DNA of 44,590 nucleotides from Frankiales bacterium. Lineage in GTDB: Bacteria > Actinomycetota > Actinomycetes > JAFAQI01. Of the stretch, positions 15,565 to 35,490 are shown piece after piece. The notes beneath the pieces were generated by a model, which did no database searches, was not told the DNA's origin, and was given only the letters and a program-made list of their open reading frames with translations. The position numbers and the translations under genes are program-made. Within the stretch, counting starts at the first letter, position 1, and every line of letters begins with the position of its first letter. Location: assembly GCA_025980465.1 (NCBI GenBank), contig JAICXJ010000025.1, positions 1 to 44,590 of the forward strand, in the 5' to 3' direction.

Positions 15565-15594
15565 TTAATAGGACGCCGCGACCGGTTTTTACAA
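15565..15594 (-). promoter_or_regulatory. Promoter of the DrrAB-like unit, overlapping the glcF stop codon
   Basis: TTGTAA (15594-15589) and TATTAA (15570-15565), separated by 18 bp, form the best sigma-70-type promoter seen in the window. The -35 box shares bases with the glcF stop codon, so the exporter can be transcribed apart from the glycolate operon. Confidence 0.6.
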
Positions 15595-16830
15595 CCCGCC
15601 GCGGATCGAGACGTCCAACACCTCGACCGTGTGTCGCAACTCGATGGTCTCACCGCGGCGGGCCAGGGCGCTTCTCACCTGCATCAGACAACCGGGATTC
15701 GCGGTGATCACCATCGACGCCCCGGTCGCCACGATGTTGGCTGCCTTTCGGTCGCCGAGGGCGCGAGCGGTGTCCGGCTGAAGCAGGTTGTAGACCCCGG
15801 CCGACCCACAGCAGATGTCGGGTTCCGCGATCTCCCGGAGCTCGAGGTCTGGAATCCCGTAGAGCAGCTCGCGGGGCTGGGCCCTGACCCCCTGCGCATG
15901 CGAGAGATGGCACGCGTCGTGGTAGGCCGCCACCACCGGCACGGGGTGGCGAGGCGCAACCGGCCCGAGTTCTGCAAGCAGTTCGCTGACGTCGCGGCAC
16001 TTGGACGAGAACGCAGCGGCGCGCTCAGCCCATTCGGGATCGTCGGCGAGCACCCGCGCATAGTCCTTCATCGACGAGCCGCAGCCGGCTGCGTTAACCA
16101 CGATGTAGTCGACGCTGGCGTCGTCGAAGACGGCAATGAGTGCCTTTGCGCGGTCGATCGCCTCTTGCTCACGGCCCGAGTGCAGCGACAGTGCGCCGCA
16201 ACACTGCTGGGACCTTGGAACGACGACTTCACAGCCCTCTGCCGCCAGCACCCGGACCGTCGCGGCATTCACGCCTGGAAAGAACTCCCGCTGGACACAG
16301 CCGCTGAGCATGCCGACCGTGGCCCGCTTCGTCCCGACAGGAGGCGTCAACTCGGCGAGCCGGTCACGCTTCCCGAGCTCGGGCAGCAACTCCTCCATCG
16401 AGCGCAACGTCGCAGGGAGCATCGGTGCAACGACCCGTGACAGCCCGAGCCGCTGGTAGACCCGCAGCGGTTTGCGGAGCGCGCGCAGCCGGCGCGGGTA
16501 AGGGAAGGTCGCGAAGATCAGCCGGCGGAGCAGGGCATCGCGTCGGGACCGATCGGCGACCTGCTCGACCTCACCGCGCGTTGCCTCGATCAGTGCGTCG
16601 TACTGCACCCCTGACGGGCACGCTGTCACACACGACATGCAGCCGAGACAGGCATCGATGTGGCGGACGATCGTGTCGTCGATCGCGGCCCCCTCGACCG
16701 CCTGCTTCATCAGATAGATCCGGCCGCGCGGCGAGTCCATCTCCTCGCCCCAGAGCAGGTACGTCGGGCAACTCGGCAGACAGAATCCGCAATGCACGCA
16801 GTCGGAAATCAGGTCGCGGTCGATCTGCAC
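15589..16830 (-). CDS. glcF: Glycolate oxidase iron-sulfur subunit
   Basis: The 413-residue protein has two [4Fe-4S] motifs at its N-terminus, CVHCGFCLPSCP (residue 11 on) and CLGCMSCVTACP (about 62 on). Two cysteine-rich CCG domains follow, shown by QQCCGALSLHSG and DICCGSAGVYNL with YHDACHLSHAQG. It takes electrons from the GlcD/GlcE flavins and passes them to the respiratory chain. GTG 16830 overlaps the glcE stop by one base. It is the last gene of aceB-glcD-glcE-glcF. Confidence 0.93.
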   Translation of the reverse strand: MQIDRDLISDCVHCGFCLPSCPTYLLWGEEMDSPRGRIYLMKQAVEGAAIDDTIVRHIDACLGCMSCVTACPSGVQYDALIEATRGEVEQVADRSRRDALLRRLIFATFPYPRRLRALRKPLRVYQRLGLSRVVAPMLPATLRSMEELLPELGKRDRLAELTPPVGTKRATVGMLSGCVQREFFPGVNAATVRVLAAEGCEVVVPRSQQCCGALSLHSGREQEAIDRAKALIAVFDDASVDYIVVNAAGCGSSMKDYARVLADDPEWAERAAAFSSKCRDVSELLAELGPVAPRHPVPVVAAYHDACHLSHAQGVRAQPRELLYGIPDLELREIAEPDICCGSAGVYNLLQPDTARALGDRKAANIVATGASMVITANPGCLMQVRSALARRGETIELRHTVEVLDVSIRGGL

Positions 16831-17981
16831 TAGATCCCTCCGACGAAGCGACCGGGTGACATCCGGTGCTCCGGGTCGAATTGGTCCTTGATACGCCGCA
16901 TGACGTCGATGCCTCGGGCGGGACCCCAGACATCGATCTGCTTCTTGAGCTCCACGGGCGCCTCGACCACTACGACACCACCGTCGTATGCGGCCAGCGC
17001 CGTCCGCAACACCTCGATCACCTCGGTCTCGACGTACGCAGCGCCCAGCCAGGTCACGCCGCTACCGACGTGCGCTCGCAGCTCCGCCTCGGGAAGCGTG
17101 TCTCGGACCACTGCGAGCACCTCGGTGAGAGCGCCGATCCGGTGGGTCAGTTTCAGGCCGTAACCGCTGGGCCTCCAGGGCCGCGCACCGAAACCGGCCG
17201 GAACGGTGTCCGTCACCTCACCGACCTCACCGCCGGTCGAGGCGAGTACAGCCACGACGTCCGCCGCCTGCTGTGTCGCGGCGGACTCGATCGATTCGAA
17301 GACCGCGGTCATGGTGGCGCCGTCCCACTCCATCGCGGTCGGCACCGCGCCTGAGGCATAAACACGCTGCGCGGCGACGGCCGGTTCGTCGGTCGCCACC
17401 GTGACAACCCGGCGGGCGGGCGCCAGCGGATGGAGGCGGAACGTGCACTCCGCGATGACCCCGAGGGTTCCGAACGAACCCGTGAACAACTTGCCCAGGT
17501 CGTAGCCCGCGACGTTCTTGACGACCTTGCCACCGGACTTCGCGACGGTGCCATCGACCAGCACGACCGTGAGCCCGATCAACAGGTCGCGAGGGGTGCC
17601 GTAGCGGAGACGGCGCGGTCCGCTCGCCGCGGCGGCGACAATCCCGCCGGCCGTTGCTCCGACCTCGGGGGGGTCCAGCGCAAGCCACTGGCCGGCGCTC
17701 GCGACATGTCGCTGCACATCGGCCAGTGGCGCGCCGGCCTGCACGGTGATGACCAGATCGCCGGCCGCATGCTCGAGGATCCGGTTCATGCTTGCGGTGC
17801 TGATGAGGACGTCGAGGCCGGTCGGCGCTGCACCCTGGTTGATCTTGCTGCCTCCGCCGATGACGCCGACCACCTCGCCGGCGGCGGCCGCCGCCCGCAT
17901 CACGTTCGTGAGGTCGGCGAGGTTGAGCGGCCGCGCGGTCCGCGCCGGGCTCACCCCCGCCACGGTGCGGTCAGAAGACAT
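16830..17981 (-). CDS. glcE: Glycolate oxidase FAD-binding subunit
   Basis: A 383-residue FAD_binding_4 (PCMH-type) protein. The FAD-binding part shows VVGVIGGGSKINQGAAP, DPPEVGATAGGIVAAAASGPRR and KSGGKVVKNVAGYDLGKLFTGSFGTLG. GlcE is homologous to GlcD but shorter and is needed with GlcD and GlcF for glycolate oxidation to glyoxylate. ATG 17981 overlaps the glcD 3' end by 11 nt, and the 3' end overlaps the glcF start by 1 nt, so translation is coupled along the unit. The C-terminus carries DQFDPEHRMSPGRFVGGI, the usual family end. Confidence 0.93.
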   Translation of the reverse strand: MSSDRTVAGVSPARTARPLNLADLTNVMRAAAAAGEVVGVIGGGSKINQGAAPTGLDVLISTASMNRILEHAAGDLVITVQAGAPLADVQRHVASAGQWLALDPPEVGATAGGIVAAAASGPRRLRYGTPRDLLIGLTVVLVDGTVAKSGGKVVKNVAGYDLGKLFTGSFGTLGVIAECTFRLHPLAPARRVVTVATDEPAVAAQRVYASGAVPTAMEWDGATMTAVFESIESAATQQAADVVAVLASTGGEVGEVTDTVPAGFGARPWRPSGYGLKLTHRIGALTEVLAVVRDTLPEAELRAHVGSGVTWLGAAYVETEVIEVLRTALAAYDGGVVVVEAPVELKKQIDVWGPARGIDVMRRIKDQFDPEHRMSPGRFVGGI

Positions 17982-19428
17982 CGGCGACGCCGGCTTCTTG
18001 GAGCGGGTGAACCCCGCTGCGCCGACCGGGCCGCTCGCCACACAGCCGTGGCGTCGGGAAGATCTTGCCGGGATTGCAGATCCCGTCCGGGTCGAACGCG
18101 CACCGGACGAGCTGCATAACGTCGAGGTCGATCTCGTTGAACATCTTGCCCATGTGCAGCTTCTTGTCGTGACCGACACCATGCTCGCCCGTGATCGAGC
18201 CGCCGTGTTCGAGGCAGAGGTCGATGATGCGGTTGGACACGGTCTCGGCGCGCTCGGTCTCGCCCTTGCTCTCGTCGAACAGCACGAGCGGATGGAGGTT
18301 GCCGTCCCCGGCATGGAAGACGTTCGCGACCCGCACGCCGGCTGCCGTCGCGACCTCCTCCACGGCGGCCAGCACCTGTGCGAGCGCGGTGCGCGGGATG
18401 ACTCCGTCCTGCACGATGTAGTCCGGGCTGATTCGCCCCACCGCGGCAAAGGCCGACTTACGGCCCTTCCAGATGACCGCCCGCTCGGCATCGTTGGACG
18501 CAACCCGGATCTCGTACGCGCGTGCCTGCCGGCATAGCCGCTCGACATCGGCGAGGTTGGCCTCGACCTCGCAGGTCGGACCGTCGAGCTCGACGATCAG
18601 GACGGCGCCGGCACCAGCCGGGTAGTCCGGGGCGACGGCAGCCTCCGCCGCCTCGATCGCCAGGGCATCCATCATTTCGATCGCCGCCGGAAGGACACCG
18701 GCGGCGATGATGGCGCTCACGGCGGCTCCGGCAGCCTCGATGCTGTCGAAAGCGGCGAGCAGTGTCTGCACTGCCTGCGGGCTGCGGCTCAGTCGCACCG
18801 TCGCCTCGGTGACGACAGCGAGGGTGCCCTCACTGCCGACGAGCGCGCCGACGACGTCGTACCCGACCGGGTCCGGGGCGAGGCCGCCGAATCGTTCGAC
18901 TGATCCGCCGGGCATCACCACCTGCAGCCCGGTCACGTGATGCGCCGTGAATCCGTACTTGAGGCAGTGAGCTCCGCCGGAGTTCTCGGCGATGTTGCCG
19001 CCGATCGAGCAGATCTGCTGGCTGGAGGGATCAGGCGCGTAGTAATAGCCGTCCGACGCCACTGCGGTCGTGAGGTGAGCGTTGATGACGCCGGGCCCCA
19101 CGACCGCCCGCTCATCCGGCACCGCGAGGTCGACGATCCGGTTCATCCGCGACAGGACGATCAGTACGCCGTCCTCGCGCGGCAGCGCGCCGCCGGACAG
19201 CCCGGTCCCTGATCCGCGGGCAACGAACGGGATGCCTCGCTCGGCGCACCGGCTGACGACATACGCGACGTCATCGGTCGTCTTCGCCAGAACCACGACG
19301 CCCGGCGTACACCGGTAGGAGGCCAGCCCGTCGCACTCGTACGTGCGAAGCGCCATCGGCTCGGTGACGACGGCATCTGATCCCAGACGGCCGAGGAACT
19401 CGACCGTCAGCTCGGACAGGGCGCTCAG
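17971..19428 (-). CDS. glcD: Glycolate oxidase catalytic FAD subunit
   Basis: A roughly 485-residue FAD-linked oxidase with FAD_binding_4 motifs FVARGSGTGLSGGALP, YYYAPDPSSQQICSIGGNIAENSGG and LVGSEGTLAVVTEATV. The C-terminal FAD-oxidase domain contains HAGDGNLHPLVLFD, GSITGEHGVGHDKK and FDPDGICNPGKIFP. It oxidises glycolate (or D-lactate) to the oxoacid. The start is a problem. Homology begins near SALSELTVEFLGRLGSD, but no in-frame ATG, GTG or TTG lies close to it. CTG 19428 is my tentative start; ATG 19356 would remove the first helix and GTG 19527 would overlap aceB by 89 nt. It follows aceB by 10 nt or less. Confidence 0.85.
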   Translation of the reverse strand: MSALSELTVEFLGRLGSDAVVTEPMALRTYECDGLASYRCTPGVVVLAKTTDDVAYVVSRCAERGIPFVARGSGTGLSGGALPREDGVLIVLSRMNRIVDLAVPDERAVVGPGVINAHLTTAVASDGYYYAPDPSSQQICSIGGNIAENSGGAHCLKYGFTAHHVTGLQVVMPGGSVERFGGLAPDPVGYDVVGALVGSEGTLAVVTEATVRLSRSPQAVQTLLAAFDSIEAAGAAVSAIIAAGVLPAAIEMMDALAIEAAEAAVAPDYPAGAGAVLIVELDGPTCEVEANLADVERLCRQARAYEIRVASNDAERAVIWKGRKSAFAAVGRISPDYIVQDGVIPRTALAQVLAAVEEVATAAGVRVANVFHAGDGNLHPLVLFDESKGETERAETVSNRIIDLCLEHGGSITGEHGVGHDKKLHMGKMFNEIDLDVMQLVRCAFDPDGICNPGKIFPTPRLCGERPGRRSGVHPLQEAGVADVF

Positions 19429-19438
19429 AGCGGCACTC

Positions 19439-21055
<1,617 letters not shown>

Positions 21056-22564: not shown

Positions 22565-22570
22565 TAGGAT
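22565..22570 (+). promoter_or_regulatory. -10 box of the acyl reductase block, probably leaderless
   Basis: TAGGAT lies seven bases before GTG 22578, and no ribosome binding site precedes that codon. The ATG at 22569 falls inside the box and would not be in the transcript. Confidence 0.5.
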
Positions 22571-22577
22571 GCGAGCC

Positions 22578-24881
22578 GTGGCCACGGTTCCGCTCGCGCA
22601 GGCCCCGCTCGCAGAAACCCTGTCTGGCAAGCGGGTACTGATCACCGGTGCGACCGGGTTCGTCGGCGAAGCGCTCCTCGAGCGGCTGCTGCACGACCTG
22701 CCCGAGACCAGCGTCGTCGTCGTCGTACGTCGCAAGGGGATGACCTCCGCAACCGAACGGGTCGAGCAGTTGCTCAACGGTGCGGCGTTCGAACGGCTGC
22801 GTGCCCGCGACGGCGCAGCAGCGGTTCAGGCCCTTGTGGGCACCCGGATCACCGTGCTCGAGGGTGACCTGGACTCGATCCCCGCGCTCCCCGCGGACCT
22901 CGACCTCGTCATCCACTGCGCCGGCGAGGTCTCGTTCGACCCGCCGATCGACGAGGGGTTCGCGACAAACCTGCACGGGACGCTGAACCTGCTCGCCGCG
23001 ATCGACTCCAGCGGCGCGACTCCTCACTACTTGCACGTCTCCACGGCGTACGTCGCAGGCCGCCAGCAAGGTCACATCCGCGAGGGACGGCTCGATCACA
23101 ACGTCGATTGGCGGTACGAAGCCGAGCTCGCGGCGCAGTTGCGGGAGCGGGTCGAGATCGACAGTCGCTCGGCCAAGCAGCTCGCGACGTTCAGCAACGA
23201 AGCGGAGAACCAGCACGGTGTCACCGGCGCCTCCTCGATCTCGGCGGAGGCCGAGAAGCGGCGCGCATCCTGGGTCGCCAAGCAACTCGTGGATGCCGGC
23301 CGGGAGCGGGGCCGCAGCCTCGGGTGGACCGACTGCTACACGTTCACCAAGGCCATGGCTGAGCGCGCAGTGGAGGAGACCGCCACCCACCTTCCGGTGA
23401 CGGTGCTGCGGCCGAGCATCATCGAGAGCGCCCTCGAGCAGCCGTTCCCGGGCTGGATCCAGGGCTTCAAGATGGCCGAGCCGATCATCCTTGCCTTCGG
23501 CCGTGGCGATCTTCCTGAGTTCCCCGCCATCCCCGACGGGGTGCTCGACGTGATTCCGGTCGACCTCGTCGTCAACGCGACCCTCGCCGCCGCGGCGCAG
23601 ACCCCGGAGCCGGGCACTCCGGCGTACTACACGATCTGCTCAGGCGCCCGGAACCCGCTGCTGTTCGGTCGCCTGTACGAGCTGGTCCGCGAGTACTTCA
23701 TCGAGCACCCGATGGTGCAGCGTGATCGCGGCGAGGTGAAGGTCCCGCAGTGGAACTGGCCGGGATCGGCGCGGGTGGGACAGCTCATCCGGCTCGGCGA
23801 GCGCGCCCAGCGCACCGCCGACCGGGTCGTCACCCACCTGCCGCGGTCCAACCGCACCCGCGACTGGGCGCGCTCCCTCGATCGCCAGCGCGGCCGGCTG
23901 GAGTTCCTTCGCCGCTACTACGACCTCTACCAGCCGTATACCGAAGCCGAGCTGCACTTCACCGACAACGCGACCTTCGGGCTGCACCAGGGCCTGCACC
24001 CGGATGACATCGCCCGCTTCGGCTTCGACGCCAGCATCATCGACTGGCCGCACTACCTGCAGGACGTTCATGTGCCTGCGGTGGTCGCGCCGATGACCAC
24101 GTTGTCGGCGATGCGGGGGGTACGACCCGAACCAACCCGGACCGTCGTGAACGGGGCATCGAACATCGTCGCCGTGTTCGATATGGACGGGACCCTGCTC
24201 TCGAGCAACGTCGTCGAGTCCTACCTGCAGCTCCGGCTGCCCGAGCTGAGTCTGCCGGCGAAGGCCCGCGAGGTCAGCGAGGTGGCTCGCGCGTTGCCGC
24301 GCTGGCTCGCCACCGAGCGAAAGGACCGGTCGGCGTTCCTCCGCATGGTGTACCGGCGCTATGACGGCGCGTCGCTCGCCGAGCTCGAGCAGATCGTCGA
24401 CGATGACATCCGCCCTACGATGCTGACCCGGCTCGCGCCCTCGGCGGTCCGCGCATTGCGCGAGCATCGCGCCGCCGGTCACCATCTCGTCCTTGTCACC
24501 GGCGCGGTCAGCCCGCTCACTCGGCCGCTTGCCCCACTCTTCGACGAGATCGTGGCCGCCGAGCTGCAGGTCGACGCGCACGGTCGCTGCACCGGCCTGC
24601 TCAAGCGGCCACCGCTCGTCGGCGAGGCTCGCGCCTCGTGGCTGCACCACCGCGCCGCCGAAGCCGGCTGGGACCTGGCCGCGAGCTACGCCTACGGCGA
24701 CTCGACGAGCGACCTTCCACTGTTGCGAGCGGTCGGCCACCCGGTCGTGATCGATCCCGACGTTGTCCTGTCGCGGGTGGCCCGTAAGGAGCGCTGGCCG
24801 GTCGAGATCTGGCACCAGGGCACCGCTCCTCGCCGCGACGAGACCACTCCACCGCCGCGCACCCTGAGAGCGGTCCGGTGA
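22578..24881 (+). CDS. Fatty acyl-CoA reductase (SDR) fused to HAD-IB phosphatase
   Basis: A 767-residue fusion. The N-terminal part (about 1-500) is an extended SDR of the thioester reductase/FAR type. It has VLITGATGFVGEALLERLL for NADP(H), HVSTAYVAG, and the catalytic pair YTFTK near residue 254. It also has the FAR-like GGVxDVIPVDLVVNA-type segment seen here as GVLDVIPVDLVVNATLA. The C-terminal part (about 530-767) is a HAD-IB phosphatase with VFDMDGTLLSSN (Asp nucleophile near 535), LVTGAVS and YAYGDSTSDLPLL. The first part should reduce an acyl thioester to aldehyde or alcohol, the second remove a phosphate. The gene is first of four with 4-nt overlaps. ATG 22569 is an alternative start. 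Confidence 0.88.
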   Translation: MATVPLAQAPLAETLSGKRVLITGATGFVGEALLERLLHDLPETSVVVVVRRKGMTSATERVEQLLNGAAFERLRARDGAAAVQALVGTRITVLEGDLDSIPALPADLDLVIHCAGEVSFDPPIDEGFATNLHGTLNLLAAIDSSGATPHYLHVSTAYVAGRQQGHIREGRLDHNVDWRYEAELAAQLRERVEIDSRSAKQLATFSNEAENQHGVTGASSISAEAEKRRASWVAKQLVDAGRERGRSLGWTDCYTFTKAMAERAVEETATHLPVTVLRPSIIESALEQPFPGWIQGFKMAEPIILAFGRGDLPEFPAIPDGVLDVIPVDLVVNATLAAAAQTPEPGTPAYYTICSGARNPLLFGRLYELVREYFIEHPMVQRDRGEVKVPQWNWPGSARVGQLIRLGERAQRTADRVVTHLPRSNRTRDWARSLDRQRGRLEFLRRYYDLYQPYTEAELHFTDNATFGLHQGLHPDDIARFGFDASIIDWPHYLQDVHVPAVVAPMTTLSAMRGVRPEPTRTVVNGASNIVAVFDMDGTLLSSNVVESYLQLRLPELSLPAKAREVSEVARALPRWLATERKDRSAFLRMVYRRYDGASLAELEQIVDDDIRPTMLTRLAPSAVRALREHRAAGHHLVLVTGAVSPLTRPLAPLFDEIVAAELQVDAHGRCTGLLKRPPLVGEARASWLHHRAAEAGWDLAASYAYGDSTSDLPLLRAVGHPVVIDPDVVLSRVARKERWPVEIWHQGTAPRRDETTPPPRTLRAVR

Positions 24882-26059
24882 TCTCCGCCCTCGAGGTCTA
24901 CCGGTCGCTTCCGCGATACGTCGCAGCGCGAGCGGTCGGGCCCCGGCTGCCCGGGCTGCTCGCCGGACCGCTGGCTCCGCTACGGCTGGTCCACCGTGAC
25001 GGGCCACGCTCCCCCGGCGACGGCTGGGTGCGGGTGCGGCCGCGCCTGTCCGGGATCTGCGGCAGCGACCTGGCCACCCTGTCCGGCCACACCTCGCTGT
25101 ATTTCACCCCGCTGGTGTCGATGCCCTTCGTGCCCGGTCACGAGGTGATCGGCGAGACACTCGACGACGGTCCCGGCGTACCGACCGGAAGCCGGGTGGT
25201 CATCGATCCGATCCTGAGCTGCGTCGCCCGCGGTCTCGATGCTTGCCCGGCCTGCGCATCGGAGCAGCGCAACCGCTGCGACCGCATCACCGTCGGTCAT
25301 CTCGCGCCGGGACTGCAGACCGGGTTCTGTGCGGACACCGGCGGCGGCTGGAGTGGGCAGTTCGTCGCCCACGCGTCGCAGCTGCATGTCGTCCCGGACC
25401 ACCTACCCGACGAACGAGCCGTCCTGGTCGAGCCGCTCGCGTGCGCGGTCCACATCGCGCGCCGGGCAGCGCTTCCAGATAGCGGCTCAGCCCTCATCGT
25501 CGGAGCCGGCGCGGTCGGTCTGTTCACCGCGCTTGCACTACGGGAGCTCACCCCGGCGGGTCACGTGACCGTAGTCGCGAAGCACCGACGGCAGGCAGAG
25601 CTCGCGCACCGGCTCGGTGCCAGCGACGTGGTGAGCCCCGCTGAGGTAGCGGGGGCGGTACGACGCTCCACCCGGGCACTGCGACTCGAGCCGGAGCGGG
25701 GGCCGGCCTACCTGCTCGGCGGTGTCGACGTCGCGATCGACGCAGTCGGTTCACGACGTTCGATCGACACGGCACTGCGCAGTGTCCGCGCCGGCGGCCG
25801 CGTCGTGCTCGGTGGCGTACCCGGCGACGGGGTCGACATGACTCCCGCTTGGTTCCGGGAGCTCGACGTCACCGGCGCCTACGCGAGTGCAGGCGATGCG
25901 TTCGAGGTCGCCATGCGGCTGGCAGCGACCGCGCCGCTCGACGGGCTGCTCGGCGTCGCCTATCCGCTTAGCCGGTGGCGCGAGGCGCTCGACCACGCGC
26001 ATGACAGCGGGCGATTGGGAACATTGAAGGTCGCATTCGACTTGAGGAGCGCAGCGTGA
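24878..26059 (+). CDS. Zinc-dependent medium-chain alcohol dehydrogenase
   Basis: A 393-residue MDR protein with a GroES-like zinc domain (SGICGSDLATLSGH, PFVPGHEVIGE) and structural-zinc cysteines in CPACASEQRNRC plus one Cys ahead of it. A Rossmann domain (ALIVGAGAVGLFTALAL) follows, then IDAVGSRRSIDTALRSVRAGGRVVLGG. It would interconvert an alcohol and aldehyde or ketone with NAD(P). The substrate cannot be read, but the GTG start overlaps the acyl reductase stop by four bases, so a lipid-derived alcohol or aldehyde is likely. The 40 N-terminal residues before the catalytic domain are unusually long. Confidence 0.9.
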   Translation: MISALEVYRSLPRYVAARAVGPRLPGLLAGPLAPLRLVHRDGPRSPGDGWVRVRPRLSGICGSDLATLSGHTSLYFTPLVSMPFVPGHEVIGETLDDGPGVPTGSRVVIDPILSCVARGLDACPACASEQRNRCDRITVGHLAPGLQTGFCADTGGGWSGQFVAHASQLHVVPDHLPDERAVLVEPLACAVHIARRAALPDSGSALIVGAGAVGLFTALALRELTPAGHVTVVAKHRRQAELAHRLGASDVVSPAEVAGAVRRSTRALRLEPERGPAYLLGGVDVAIDAVGSRRSIDTALRSVRAGGRVVLGGVPGDGVDMTPAWFRELDVTGAYASAGDAFEVAMRLAATAPLDGLLGVAYPLSRWREALDHAHDSGRLGTLKVAFDLRSAA

Positions 26060-27633
26060 GCCGCCCAGGATTCGTGTTGACGGTGGACGAGCGGACTCCG
26101 CCGCTGCTGATGCACTCGGGCGAGTCGTTCAAGCTGCAGGAGTTCCCGCTGGGCACCCGGGTCATCTACCCGCCGGAGTCGCTTCCCGGCGTCGTCGACA
26201 TCGACGAGACGATCGAGAACGCCTTGCTTCACCCGGTCGACAGTGAGCCGTTGCCGGCGTTGCTTCGAGCGGGCATGAAGCTCACGATCGCGTTTGACGA
26301 CCTGTCCCTGCCGTTGCCGCCGATGCGCAAGCCCGACATCCGGCAGCGGATCCTCGAGCACGTGCTCCAGCACGCCGCCGAAGCCGGTGTGGACGATGTC
26401 GAGCTGATCGTCGCCACGGCTCTGCATCGAAGGATGACCGCCGATGAGATCAAGGCCGCGGTCGGCGAGCGGGTGTTCCGATCGTTCTGGCCGGATCAGC
26501 TCTACAACTTCGATGCCGAGGACCGCGCCAACCTCGCTCACCTCGGCACAACTGATTCCGGCGAGGACGTCGAGATCTCGAAGCGGGCAGCCGAGTCGGA
26601 CCTGCTGATCTACGTCAACATCAACCTCGTCGCGATGGACGGCGGGTGGAAGTCGACGGCGGTCGGTCTAGCGTCGTACAACTCACTGCGCCATCACCAC
26701 AACGCACACACGATGGTGCACTCCCGGTCGTTCATGGATCCCCGTCACTCCGAGCTGCACTCGAGCGCATGGCGGATGGGCCGGATCATCAACGACCACG
26801 TCAAGGTGTTCCAGATCGAGACCACGTTGAACAACGACGCGTTCCCGTCGCAGTACGGCTTCCTCACCAAGCGCGAGTGGGAGTGGTCGCTGCGCGATCA
26901 GGCCTTGTTCCTCGGCGCCAAACGTGGCCTCGATCTGCTACCGACGAAGCAGCGGCGCCGGGTATTTCAATCGATCGAGGCGCCGTATCTGGTCACCGGA
27001 GTCAGTGCGGGTGCGGTCGAGCCGGTGCACGCGGAAACCCTCGAACGGGTCCACCGGCAGCAGTTGGTCGAGGTCGACGGGCAGACCGACGTCCTCGTGA
27101 TGGGGCTGCCCTATCTGTGCCCCTACAACGTGAACAGCGTGATGAACCCGATCCTCGCCGCCTGCCTCGGCCTCGGGTACTTCTTCAACATGTACCGGAA
27201 CAAGCCGCTGGTGCGTGAAGGCGGCGTGCTGATCCTCAACCACCCGGTGCCGTGGGAGTTCTCGACCCTTCACCACCCGTCGTACGTCGACTTCTTCGAC
27301 GAGGTCCTGTCCGAAAGCACCGACCCGAAGGTGATCGGACCGAAGTTCGAGCAGCAGTACGCGACGGATCCCTGGTACACGCACCTGTACCGGACCTCTC
27401 ACGCCTACCACGGGGTCCACCCCTTCTATATGTGGTACTGGTGCGCTCACGCGCTCGACCACGTCGGCGAGGTGATCTGGGTCGGTGGCGACCGCCGGGC
27501 GGTGGCGCGGATGGGGATGCGATCCGCCTCGACGTTCGCGGATGCCCTGGAGCTGGCCCGCGACACCGTCGGTGCCAGCCCCACGATCACGTACACCCAC
27601 AACCCGCCCCACCTCCTCGCGGAAGTGCGATGA
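26056..27633 (+). CDS. LarA/DUF2088-like protein, probable divergent nickel-pincer enzyme
   Basis: A 525-residue protein with the LarA N-terminal pattern: AFDDLSLPLPPMRKPDIR (residue 79 on) and LIVATALHRRMTADEI, where His124 matches the ATGTHR-type catalytic His. DGGWKSTAVGLASYNSLRHHH has Lys199 at the position of the LarA cofactor lysine. LarA uses a nickel pincer nucleotide to racemise lactate. Compared from memory, the segment holding the second catalytic His (usually PHxxAGFSGG) is shortened to NINLVAMDGG and lacks it. The C-terminal 300 residues include YLCPYNVNSVMNP and HPFYMWYWCAHALDHVGEVIW. GTG overlaps the previous stop by 4 nt. The reaction is unknown. Confidence 0.8.
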   Translation: MSRPGFVLTVDERTPPLLMHSGESFKLQEFPLGTRVIYPPESLPGVVDIDETIENALLHPVDSEPLPALLRAGMKLTIAFDDLSLPLPPMRKPDIRQRILEHVLQHAAEAGVDDVELIVATALHRRMTADEIKAAVGERVFRSFWPDQLYNFDAEDRANLAHLGTTDSGEDVEISKRAAESDLLIYVNINLVAMDGGWKSTAVGLASYNSLRHHHNAHTMVHSRSFMDPRHSELHSSAWRMGRIINDHVKVFQIETTLNNDAFPSQYGFLTKREWEWSLRDQALFLGAKRGLDLLPTKQRRRVFQSIEAPYLVTGVSAGAVEPVHAETLERVHRQQLVEVDGQTDVLVMGLPYLCPYNVNSVMNPILAACLGLGYFFNMYRNKPLVREGGVLILNHPVPWEFSTLHHPSYVDFFDEVLSESTDPKVIGPKFEQQYATDPWYTHLYRTSHAYHGVHPFYMWYWCAHALDHVGEVIWVGGDRRAVARMGMRSASTFADALELARDTVGASPTITYTHNPPHLLAEVR

Positions 27634-28553
27634 AGCCGTCGGTCAGGGTGTCGGTGCCGTCCGACATCCGGCAGGTCGCGCGGGGCTGGCGGTGGGGCCA
27701 TCGGCCACTGCCACCGCACTCTGCGGAGCCCCATCACTCGTTCGCCGAACCTCGTGAGTTCCCCACCGAGTGGGCGCGCTCACGCGCTGCCCGCGTCGCA
27801 CGTGAGGCGATTCTTCGCGGCGGGCTCACGCCCCTGGTGCATCGAGAAACGTCGATGCGGATCGAGGGACGCGACATCTTCGACACCCTCGACGGGCCGG
27901 TCGTGATCGTCGCCAACCACACCTCTCACCTCGACACCGCCCTGCTACTCACCACGTTGCCGACGAGGTGGCGGCGCAAAGTGACTGTCGGTGCTGCCGC
28001 CGACTACTTCTTCGACGCCTGGTGGCGCGCAATCGGGTCAGCCCTGGTCTTCGCTACGTTCCCGATCGAACGCCACGGTCAGGGGTTGTCCGACACTCCG
28101 ACCAAACTGATCGAGGACGGCTGGTCGATCGTGATGTTCCCGGAGGGGACCCGCTCGCCCGACGGCTGGACCCGACGGTTTCGGCCGGGCGCAGCTGCAT
28201 TGGCCCGGGCCCACAACATCCCGATCGTTCCGGTCGCGATCCGCGGCTCCTTCGCCGCGATGCCGCGCGGTCGTTCCTGGCCAAAGCCGGGCCGGCCGGC
28301 GGTCCACGTCCGCTACGGGGCGCCGCTGTATCCACGCGACGACGAGAACACCCTGGCCCTGAACGCGCGCATGTCGGCGGCGATCGCCGCTCTGCTCGAC
28401 GAGGACACATCCGACTGGTACGCCGCCCGCCGGCGCGCGCACCACGAAGTGACGCCGGGCGCCGAAGGCCCGCCGGCCGCGAACTGGCGGCGCGTCTGGG
28501 CAGCCACCGCCGGTCCTGAGGCGCAGCGGTCACGACCGAAAGCCTGGCGCTAA
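27630..28553 (+). CDS. 1-acyl-sn-glycerol-3-phosphate acyltransferase-like protein (PlsC family)
   Basis: A 307-residue acyltransferase. The catalytic NHTSHLD (H97-D102) and FPEGTRSPDGW (about 170-180) motifs are intact, and VPVAIRGSFAAMPRG follows as motif IV. The enzyme transfers an acyl chain from CoA or ACP to an alcohol group, usually lysophosphatidate. About 60 N-terminal and 55 C-terminal residues outside the core are poorly conserved in my experience. ATG overlaps the LarA-like stop by 4 nt (ATGA). It is the fourth gene of the block; with the acyl reductase it suggests a non-standard lipid made from acyl chains. Confidence 0.9.
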   Translation: MKPSVRVSVPSDIRQVARGWRWGHRPLPPHSAEPHHSFAEPREFPTEWARSRAARVAREAILRGGLTPLVHRETSMRIEGRDIFDTLDGPVVIVANHTSHLDTALLLTTLPTRWRRKVTVGAAADYFFDAWWRAIGSALVFATFPIERHGQGLSDTPTKLIEDGWSIVMFPEGTRSPDGWTRRFRPGAAALARAHNIPIVPVAIRGSFAAMPRGRSWPKPGRPAVHVRYGAPLYPRDDENTLALNARMSAAIAALLDEDTSDWYAARRRAHHEVTPGAEGPPAANWRRVWAATAGPEAQRSRPKAWR

Positions 28554-28575: not shown

Positions 28576-29238
28576 ATGATCGCCGCGCCGGTCGTTGTGG
28601 AGCGTGTAGCGACCGGGCGCGGCGAGCTGGCGCTCCGGCAGCTGGGCGAGGACTTCGAGGTGATCAGCAACGGGGTGTTCTTGATGGACACCCGTAACGG
28701 CGAGTCGGAGCGCTTGCTCGTCGCTGCCGCGTTAGCCGCACATCCCCGACCGCGGCGGCTACTGATCGGTGGGCTCGGCGTCGGCTTCTCGGTGTCGGCC
28801 GCGCTGGCCGACGAGCACGTGGAGCGGGTGGTCGTCGTCGAGATCGCGGCCGAGATCGTGCGCTGGAACCGGACCCACTTTGCCGGGCTCAACGACCACG
28901 CCCTCGACGACGCGCGAGTGGAGGTCGTCACCGGCGACCTGCTCGACTACCTCCGCGCGACGGATCGGTCGTACGACGTGATCTGCCTCGACATCGACAA
29001 TGGACCTGACTGGACCGTCACCGACCGAAACCGCGGGCTGTACGACGACGCGGGCACGGCGCTCGTGGCGTCGCGGCTCCGATCACCCGGCGTGCTGTCG
29101 GTGTGGAGCGCCGACCGATCCCCGTCGTACGAGTCGACCCTCGCCCGGACCTTCGACCAGGTCGAGGCCATCGACGTCCCGGTCCCGCGCGGTGACCCCG
29201 ACATTGTGTACATCGGCTACCGCGGTGTACGACGGTGA
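28576..29238 (+). CDS. Spermidine-synthase-like Rossmann protein
   Basis: The 220-residue protein has the SpeE-like methyltransferase fold: LLIGGLGVGFSVSAALA (glycine-rich loop), VVVVEIAAEIVRWNRTHF (acidic residue after strand 2) and YDVICLDIDNGPDW. The N-terminal tetramerisation domain of true spermidine synthases is absent. The active-site Asp region differs in the details I can recall, so polyamine synthesis is doubtful. It may act as a methyl- or aminopropyl-transferase of other type. ATG has GGAGG five bases upstream. It starts 22 nt after the acyltransferase and ends 1 nt before the aldehyde dehydrogenase. Confidence 0.85.
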   Translation: MIAAPVVVERVATGRGELALRQLGEDFEVISNGVFLMDTRNGESERLLVAAALAAHPRPRRLLIGGLGVGFSVSAALADEHVERVVVVEIAAEIVRWNRTHFAGLNDHALDDARVEVVTGDLLDYLRATDRSYDVICLDIDNGPDWTVTDRNRGLYDDAGTALVASRLRSPGVLSVWSADRSPSYESTLARTFDQVEAIDVPVPRGDPDIVYIGYRGVRR

Positions 29239-30970: not shown

Positions 30971-31032
30971 CGCGACCGCGAACACGCCAAGATCACCTGG
31001 CGGTTGGCCCCCGGCCAGGCTGGAAACCGGGC

Positions 31033-31038
31033 TACTCT
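31033..31038 (+). promoter_or_regulatory. Possible -10 box of sigA
   Basis: TACTCT stands 34 bases before GTG 31073. A transcript start near 31045 would leave a 28-base leader that holds GGGAGAGG (31057-31064) as ribosome binding site. No convincing -35 box is seen. Confidence 0.35.
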
Positions 31039-31072
31039 TGCCGGTGTCCGCAGCACGGGAGAGGCCGTCTTC

Positions 31073-32254
31073 GTGAGTAGTGCACGTCAGGCAGCCGCCG
31101 ATCCGGCCAAGACGCCGGCGAAAGCGCCCGCCGCCCCACGCAAGAGCCGCAAGACTGCCATCGCCGCCGTCCCCGGCGACGAAGAGCCGGCCGCTGAGGC
31201 TCCCACCGCCGCACCGGCCGAGGAAGAGGCGGGCAACCTTCCCCCGATCGACGCCGAGACCGAACCCACCGAAGGCGAGCTCGCCGAGGAAGAGGAAGAC
31301 CTCGAACTCGTCGCCGAGGAAGACAACTCCGGTCCCTCCACCGACCTGGTCCGTGCATATCTCAAGGAGATCGGTCGCGTTGCGCTGCTCAATGCCGAGC
31401 AGGAGGTCGAGCTCGCGAAGCGGATCGAGGCGGGACTGTTCGCGGCCGAGAAGATCCGCCAGTGCGACTCCGGCGACATCAAGGTCAACAAGGCACTGCT
31501 CAAGGACTACGACTGGCTGATCGCAGACGGACAGCGCGCCAAGGATCATCTGCTGGAAGCCAACCTCCGGCTCGTCGTGTCGGTGGCCAAGCGATACACC
31601 GGCCGCGGGATGGCGTTTCTCGACCTGATCCAGGAAGGCAACCTCGGCCTGATCCGGGCGGTCGAGAAGTTCGACTACACCAAGGGCTACAAGTTCTCGA
31701 CGTACGCGACGTGGTGGATCCGGCAGGCGATCACCCGCGCGATGGCCGACCAAGCACGCACCATCCGGATCCCGGTGCACATGGTCGAGCAGATCAACAA
31801 GCTCACCCGGGTGCAGCGGCAGATGCTGCAGGACCTCGGTAGGGAGCCGACCGCCGACGAGCTCGCCAAAGAACTCGACATGACCCCCGACAAGGTCGTC
31901 GAGATCCAGGGCTACGCCCGCGAGCCGGTCAGCCTCGAGCAAAACGTCGGCGATGAGGGTGACAGCCAGCTCGGTGACTTCATCGAGGATGCCGACGCTC
32001 CGATCGCGGCAGAGGTGGTGTCCTTCGGGCTGCTGCAGCGCGAGCTCGACAGCGTTCTGAAGACGTTGCCGGAGCGCGAGGCGGCGGTCGTCGCACTGCG
32101 GTTCGGCCTCACCGATGGCCAGCCCCGCACCCTCGACGAGATCGGCCGCGAGTTCGGGCTGACCCGCGAGCGGATCCGCCAGATCGAAGCGAAGACGCTG
32201 TCGAAGCTGCGCCACCCCAGCCGGTCCCAGAAGCTGCGCGACTACCTCGAGTAA
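31073..32254 (+). CDS. sigA: Principal RNA polymerase sigma factor (RpoD/HrdB type)
   Basis: A 393-residue sigma-70 protein. The Ala/Pro/Glu-rich N-terminus (1-85) is low complexity. Region 1.2 begins [18 protein letters not shown], and region 2 has [25 protein letters not shown] and [21 protein letters not shown] for -10 recognition. Region 4.2 is [22 protein letters not shown] for -35 recognition, and the end [11 protein letters not shown] is that of group 1 factors. It directs housekeeping transcription. GTG 31073 is chosen because GGGAGAGG lies eight bases upstream. It is convergent with the TauE-like gene after a 15-nt gap. A second factor lies 2 kb downstream. Confidence 0.94.

Positions 32255-34293: not shown

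Positions 34294-35490
<1,197 letters not shown>

Follow-up and report, generated by a model that had tools for sequence, protein, structure and literature searches.

The question raised by the locus studied here is what a row of four tightly joined genes, encoding a fatty acyl reductase (FAR)-HAD phosphatase fusion, an alcohol dehydrogenase (ADH), a LarA-family protein and a PlsC-type acyltransferase, might make together. The genes lie on the plus strand, at positions 22569/22578-28553 of a 44,590-nt window (the whole stretch of DNA that was analysed) of contig JAICXJ010000025.1 from a Frankiales bacterium. The initial annotation had read them as one functional unit joined by three successive 4-nt overlaps, and both the open reading frames (ORFs) and the overlaps were found as described (GTGA at 24878, GTGA at 26056 and ATGA at 27630); the domain assignments were borne out by Pfam and NCBIfam. 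The first gene may start at GTG 22578 or at an in-frame ATG 9 nt before it, at 22569. Based on the present data, the operon is real, conserved and largely uncharacterised. We further propose that it is dedicated to lipid synthesis and most likely yields an alkyl-ether glycerolipid precursor, in a manner resembling the elb toolkit of Myxococcus xanthus, a reading to which we give about an even chance.

Gene order was surveyed in one genome per species, using the LarA protein as query. The 80 loci recovered, with 554 relatives in all, belong to Frankiales, Nocardioides, Kribbella, Actinopolymorpha, Actinomadura and Actinoallomurus, together with Pseudonocardiales, Nitriliruptorales, Acidimicrobiia and a few Streptomyces. 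The FAR-HAD and ADH genes were located upstream of LarA on the same strand in all 69 loci with enough upstream sequence, a count that takes in L003 and L024, where ADH overlaps the LarA start, and PlsC was found downstream of LarA in 72 of the 73 testable loci. When all neighbouring ORFs were clustered, no fifth conserved gene emerged, the next most frequent cluster occurring in no more than 14 of 73 loci, which rules out a larger operon. In a phylum-wide sample, 78 of 396 genomes encoded a LarA above the NF052592 cut-off, and FAR-HAD stood beside LarA in each of the 20 regions fetched around such matches; among these regions ADH was absent from L158, and PlsC from the Rubrobacter-family loci L155 and L156. 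The order is kept between classes of the phylum even where protein identities fall to about 40%, and synteny across the loci rules out a chance or merely local arrangement. The four proteins also co-diverge (Pearson r of pairwise distances 0.92-0.96, which is uncorrected for shared ancestry and weak when taken alone), LarA being the most conserved, with a mean identity of 0.70 compared to 0.51-0.59 for the other three. Because synteny is near-complete across the phylum, the proteins co-diverge and no fifth gene is kept, the view that the four genes form one functional unit is strongly supported. Indeed, the order is conserved across genera, from Frankia and Nocardioides to Acidimicrobiia, and the families do not scatter independently. 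The expected conservation of the overlaps held in part: they recur at 69 of 88 FAR-HAD/ADH, 29 of 95 ADH/LarA and 47 of 91 LarA/PlsC junctions (the loci being partly redundant), but not at every junction. The low count at the ADH/LarA junction, together with the absence of ADH from L158, would fit a grouping of the genes by transcription only, with no common pathway. Conserved synteny has already largely refuted this idea, as the order persists between classes while no other neighbour is kept, and PlsC is swapped for PlsY in Rubrobacter; we regard it as highly improbable. Distant LarA proteins (roughly 540 bits or less) had no block partners adjoining, the exceptions being L168, with a weak ADH match about 2 kb away, and L159, with a weak HAD match about 5 kb away on the opposite strand. 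A second, different setting for NF052592-like proteins was seen at L160 (4792-7702) and L163 (6133-8928), where a protein that by eye is class III CoA-transferase-like is followed by a diverged homologue of LarA, scoring about 450-470 bits against the block LarA profile, and where FAR, ADH and PlsC are absent.

The LarA homologue is the most unusual member of the set, and the suggestion that it might be a nickel-pincer enzyme gains support from its sequence, its fold and the cofactor genes of the same genome. Its predicted structure (predicted local distance difference test, pLDDT, 94.3) has the two-domain LarA fold, with Z-scores of about 29-41 to LarA structures and a best match to the single-histidine LarA 9q3k (Z 40.9, root-mean-square deviation (rmsd) 2.3, 451 residues aligned). 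Residues were mapped by profile alignment to Lactobacillus plantarum LarA and counted by column over 43 homologues. Asp72, His108, Lys184 and His200 are kept as D82, H124, K199 and H215; the lysine that links the nickel-pincer nucleotide (NPN), K199, is present in 42 of 43 sequences, and the nickel ligand H215 and the first catalytic histidine H124 in all 43. The second catalytic histidine, His174, is missing, its position being N190 (Asn in 35 of 43 sequences, Thr in 7), and so is Arg75, which contacts the cofactor phosphate and substrate carboxylate (position 85 is L in 33, I in 7, and V, C and T in 1 each of 43). Sequence and model together support the assignment of this protein as a putative NPN protein with one catalytic histidine. 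LarA groups 14 and 15 have likewise been described as lacking an equivalent of His174 (PMC12611868). An ordinary NPN-dependent 2-hydroxyacid isomerase, changing a polar headgroup or supplying a hydroxyacid while the other three proteins make a conventional modified phospholipid, would agree with the LarA fold, the 907-bit match to NF052592 and the NCBIfam name of that family, 'NPN-dependent hydroxyacid isomerase'. We consider this unlikely: the His174 position is N or T in 42 of 43 homologues, 41 of these homologues have a hydrophobic residue (L, I or V) at the Arg75 position, and the Frankia LarAH14 protein showed no activity in seven 2-hydroxyacid assays (PMC7583248). Since both residues are gone and LarAH14 was inactive on all seven substrates, a role as a plain 2-hydroxyacid racemase is also not favoured.

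The genome of the window encodes LarB (273 bits) with LarC adjacent, and LarE (275 bits), all above their cut-offs, and the block LarA is its sole LarA homologue. Because this homologue is unique and LarB, LarC and LarE are present, the whole NPN pathway of this genome apparently serves the four-gene block. Among the sampled relatives, a set that does not cover Rubrobacter, LarB scored above the cut-off in nearly all block carriers, with two exceptions, G010 and G048. The G010 genome is incomplete (86%). In G048 the LarA protein (L175, 5690-7274, minus strand) has lost the cofactor lysine and the surrounding motif, although the block is otherwise complete, and no LarB was found in this single-contig genome. 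The paired loss of lysine and LarB, a single case, is what NPN dependence predicts, and G048 is a natural variant that could show how the block functions without the nickel cofactor. LarB alone was rejected as a block marker, since about ten of the sampled genomes encode it but lack the LarA family of the block.

The first protein of the block comprises a FAR domain (about residues 1-510; a short-chain dehydrogenase/reductase (SDR) of the FAR1-like type with a C-terminal FAR domain) and an HAD-IB domain (about residues 530-740). Pfam assigned NAD_binding_4 and Sterile/FAR_C to the former, the second of these sub-threshold (31.3 compared to a cut-off of 35.4, 2e-7). The FAR profile matched the rice fatty acyl reductase DPW (PDB 7eoz) over residues 1-500 with 328 bits, and the model of the fusion (pLDDT 89.9) matched the same structure over residues 7-509 (Z 40.0, rmsd 3.6, 447 residues aligned), well above the Z of about 31 to thioester reductase domains. 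DPW makes fatty alcohol. The FAR motifs TGxTGFxG and YxxxK, and the nucleophile and metal ligands of the HAD half (D535, T641, D708 and D712), are invariant among homologues wherever the column is filled. Judged from sequence and model, the reductase appears most like the alcohol-forming FAR of the FAR1/DPW type. The ADH has its relatives among the sorbitol/ketose, threonine and idonate dehydrogenases, with the NADP(H)-dependent ketose reductase 1e3j as best PDB match (77 bits), and PlsC has conserved NHx4D (NHTSHLD) and EGTR (PEGTRS) motifs and matches the PlsC structure 5kym with 47 bits. A full alcohol-forming reductase would also suit a block whose products are fatty alcohols, esters of the wax type or lipids with a long-chain 1,2-diol. 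In such a block FAR would turn an acyl or 2-hydroxyacyl thioester into an alcohol or 1,2-diol, LarA would determine which configuration the 2-hydroxyacid has, and the product would be acylated by PlsC. PlsC-type enzymes can acylate alcohols besides lysophosphatidic acid, which such a scheme would draw on, and relatives of LarA act on 2-hydroxyacids (PMC7583248, PMC11770544). In the block LarA, in contrast, neither the second catalytic histidine nor the carboxylate-binding arginine is present, the conserved gene set includes no hydroxylase or wax-ester synthase, and Rubrobacter uses PlsY, a glycerol-3-phosphate acyltransferase, so that we hold this alternative to be rather unlikely.

The Rubrobacter version of the unit is informative about the product. 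Its carriers include G106 and G126, which were recognised as Rubrobacter radiotolerans and R. indicoceani, respectively, because contigs of theirs match plasmids of these species at 100%. The order of the unit is PlsY, FAR-HAD, ADH, LarA, with no PlsC alongside. As PlsY sits in this unit, a glycerol-3-phosphate acyltransferase is still kept where PlsC is gone; the PlsY of the block is the only one in 4 of the 6 Rubrobacter-family genomes searched. At an E-value of 1e-15, the Rubrobacter-family genome G097 has no NAD_binding_4 protein other than the block FAR. At the G097 locus (L172, 8804-9394) a protoglobin (PF11563, 129 bits) lies between ADH and LarA, and a similar ORF occupies the same place in L156. 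According to the title of a study cited in PMC11150832, PMC13412118 and PMC11129491 (doi 10.1016/j.syapm.2023.126404), Rubrobacterales have mainly mixed ether/ester lipids. Ger/PlsA (DUF2229, PF09989) was found in none of 10 such genomes, with a positive Thermotoga maritima control, and a plasmalogen-type Ger/PlsA route was rejected for them. Nor was a full-length AGPS found in the Rubrobacter genomes, where the best matches to an AGPS-like query reached 56-99 bits; the same query found AGPS-like proteins in the window's genome (G000) and in G348 with 284 and 272 bits. A 498-aa PF02913 protein of R. radiotolerans was rejected as an AGPS, being glycolate-oxidase-like (277 versus 105 bits). A related operon may already have been described: Sinninghe Damste reportedly proposed in 2023 a putative Rubrobacter operon for 1-O-alkyl-glycerol phosphate, which is possibly the same one.

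We infer an ether lipid as the class of product because the gene order is conserved, the reductase appears to be of the alcohol-forming type, Rubrobacter combines a PlsY-containing unit with reported ether/ester lipids while Ger/PlsA and full-length AGPS were not found there, and the set resembles the elb toolkit. Compared to a diol or an alcohol lipid, an ether lipid is the best-supported, though unproven, product. It would be a 1-O-alkyl-glycerol 3-phosphate and then its 1-alkyl-2-acyl form. The FAR domain is predicted to reduce long-chain acyl-CoA or acyl carrier protein (ACP) thioesters to fatty alcohol, and PlsC (PlsY in Rubrobacter) would perform the acyl transfer. The remaining steps are hypothetical: LarA might act on the glycerol backbone in a redox-neutral manner through its nickel-pincer hydride acceptor, for example by a transient C2 oxidation that lets the fatty alcohol replace a C1 acyl group, as flavin adenine dinucleotide (FAD) does in AGPS; ADH might reduce or oxidise a backbone ketone or alcohol and could be an alkyl-dihydroxyacetone-phosphate (alkyl-DHAP) reductase; and the HAD domain might remove a phosphate at an undefined stage. 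The specific idea that the NPN enzyme stands in for AGPS, forming the glycerol ether bond via a hidden redox step on a non-hydroxyacid substrate, is in our view doubtful. Several observations weigh against the ether-lipid interpretation. We know of no reaction of LarA-family enzymes beyond 2-hydroxyacid isomerisation. The window's genome encodes two full-length AGPS-like flavoproteins (G000:C92:19390-21051, which matches PDB 2uuu with 272 bits, and G000:C71:13406-14908), so that an ether bond could form there outside the block. In the literature searched, ether lipids were neither known to us nor found for the other carriers Frankia, Nocardioides, Kribbella and Actinomadura; this and the two flavoproteins are the main weakness of the interpretation. 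An ElbD in Rubrobacter would be a further objection. The second reductase-containing protein there (L230, 5844-9092) was rejected as an ElbD, since it combines AMP-binding, carrier and reductase parts and shows no acyltransferase domain by eye, although ElbD homologues without a FAR domain were not searched for.

If the proposed route is correct, it would represent a new reaction for the NPN cofactor and a further bacterial way to ether lipids, spread over the Actinomycetota. An orphan nickel-pincer branch, whose member LarAH14 was inactive on every substrate tried, gains a fixed lipid-synthesis context with a glycerolipid rather than a hydroxyacid as predicted substrate. The block would also be a candidate for ether-lipid formation in aerobic actinobacteria such as Rubrobacter that lack Ger/PlsA or AGPS, which bears on the 'lipid divide'.

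Genes of the block and the ORF that follows it, with window coordinates and supporting matches.
Feature	Coordinates	Strand	Evidence
Gene 1, FAR-HAD-IB phosphatase fusion	22569..24881	+	PF07993 165 bits; PF12710 124 bits; TIGR01490 above cut-off
Gene 2, zinc-dependent medium-chain dehydrogenase (ADH)	24878..26059	+	PF08240 and PF00107 (ADH_N/ADH_zinc_N)
Gene 3, LarA homologue, LarAH14/15/16 family	26056..27633	+	NF052592 907.4 bits (cut-off 740); PF09861 Lar_N 144 bits
Gene 4, PlsC-type glycerolipid acyltransferase	27630..28553	+	PF01553 80 bits; NHTSHLD and PEGTRS motifs
Spermidine-synthase-like ORF, 22 nt downstream of PlsC	28576..29238	+	PF01564 41 bits

The spermidine-synthase-like gene gave tblastn matches in 4 of 102 loci, including the window's own (L088); because the other three (L004, L086 and L100) all belong to the same family as the window's organism, it is probably not part of the four-gene unit. 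Elsewhere in the window, the minus strand carries a glycolate oxidase-like set at 15589-19569 (a 4Fe-4S/CCG protein, a FAD_binding_4 protein and a GlcD-type FAD-oxidase), adjoined by an ORF at 19439-21055 that is malate-synthase-like by eye. Two principal-type sigma-70 factors (regions 1.2, 2, 3 and 4) are encoded on the plus strand at 31004-32254 and 34294-35490, at most 5 kb apart.

The initial annotation knew of no described pathway with this combination of genes, and none was found in the literature searched, although the LarA subfamily already carries a name (NF052592) and LarAH14 has been assayed (PMC7583248). No description of a fixed linkage of LarAH14/15/16 to FAR-HAD, ADH and PlsC was found in the literature text, which leaves out the neighbouring COGs in Table S1 of PMC7583248, and a search for DUF2088 together with acyltransferases gave nothing useful. 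The block LarA is a clear member of NF052592 (907 versus 740 bits) with a LarA fold, the function of that family being itself unproven. The closest solved structures are the single-histidine LarA proteins of Streptococcus plurextorum and Blautia wexlerae (9q3k and 9q3j, Z 40.9 and 37.3), for which a carbohydrate role has been proposed (PMC12611868). Like the block LarA they have Asn at the second catalytic position, but they are only 22-24% identical to it and have Lys at the Arg75 position, where the block has Leu or Ile. In the eukaryotic FAR1-GNPAT-AGPS-AGNPR pathway, fatty-alcohol formation, reduction of the backbone ketone and acyl transfer all have counterparts in the block; the AGPS flavoenzyme (FAD_binding_4 and FAD-oxidase_C) has no such gene in the conserved block, and LarA would need to replace it. 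The elb system of M. xanthus (ElbB, ElbD and ElbE) is the best-studied aerobic bacterial ether-lipid system. It differs from the block in that ElbD has acyl-CoA synthetase and ACP domains, whereas AMP-binding and ACP domains are absent from the proteins of the block, in that elb as described contains no LarA, and in its dehydrogenase, which is an epimerase-type SDR rather than a zinc medium-chain dehydrogenase. Nevertheless, its FAR1-like reductase, HAD hydrolase, NAD(P)-dependent dehydrogenase and AGPAT-like acyltransferase (PMC9131029) represent the same kinds of activity as those combined in the block.

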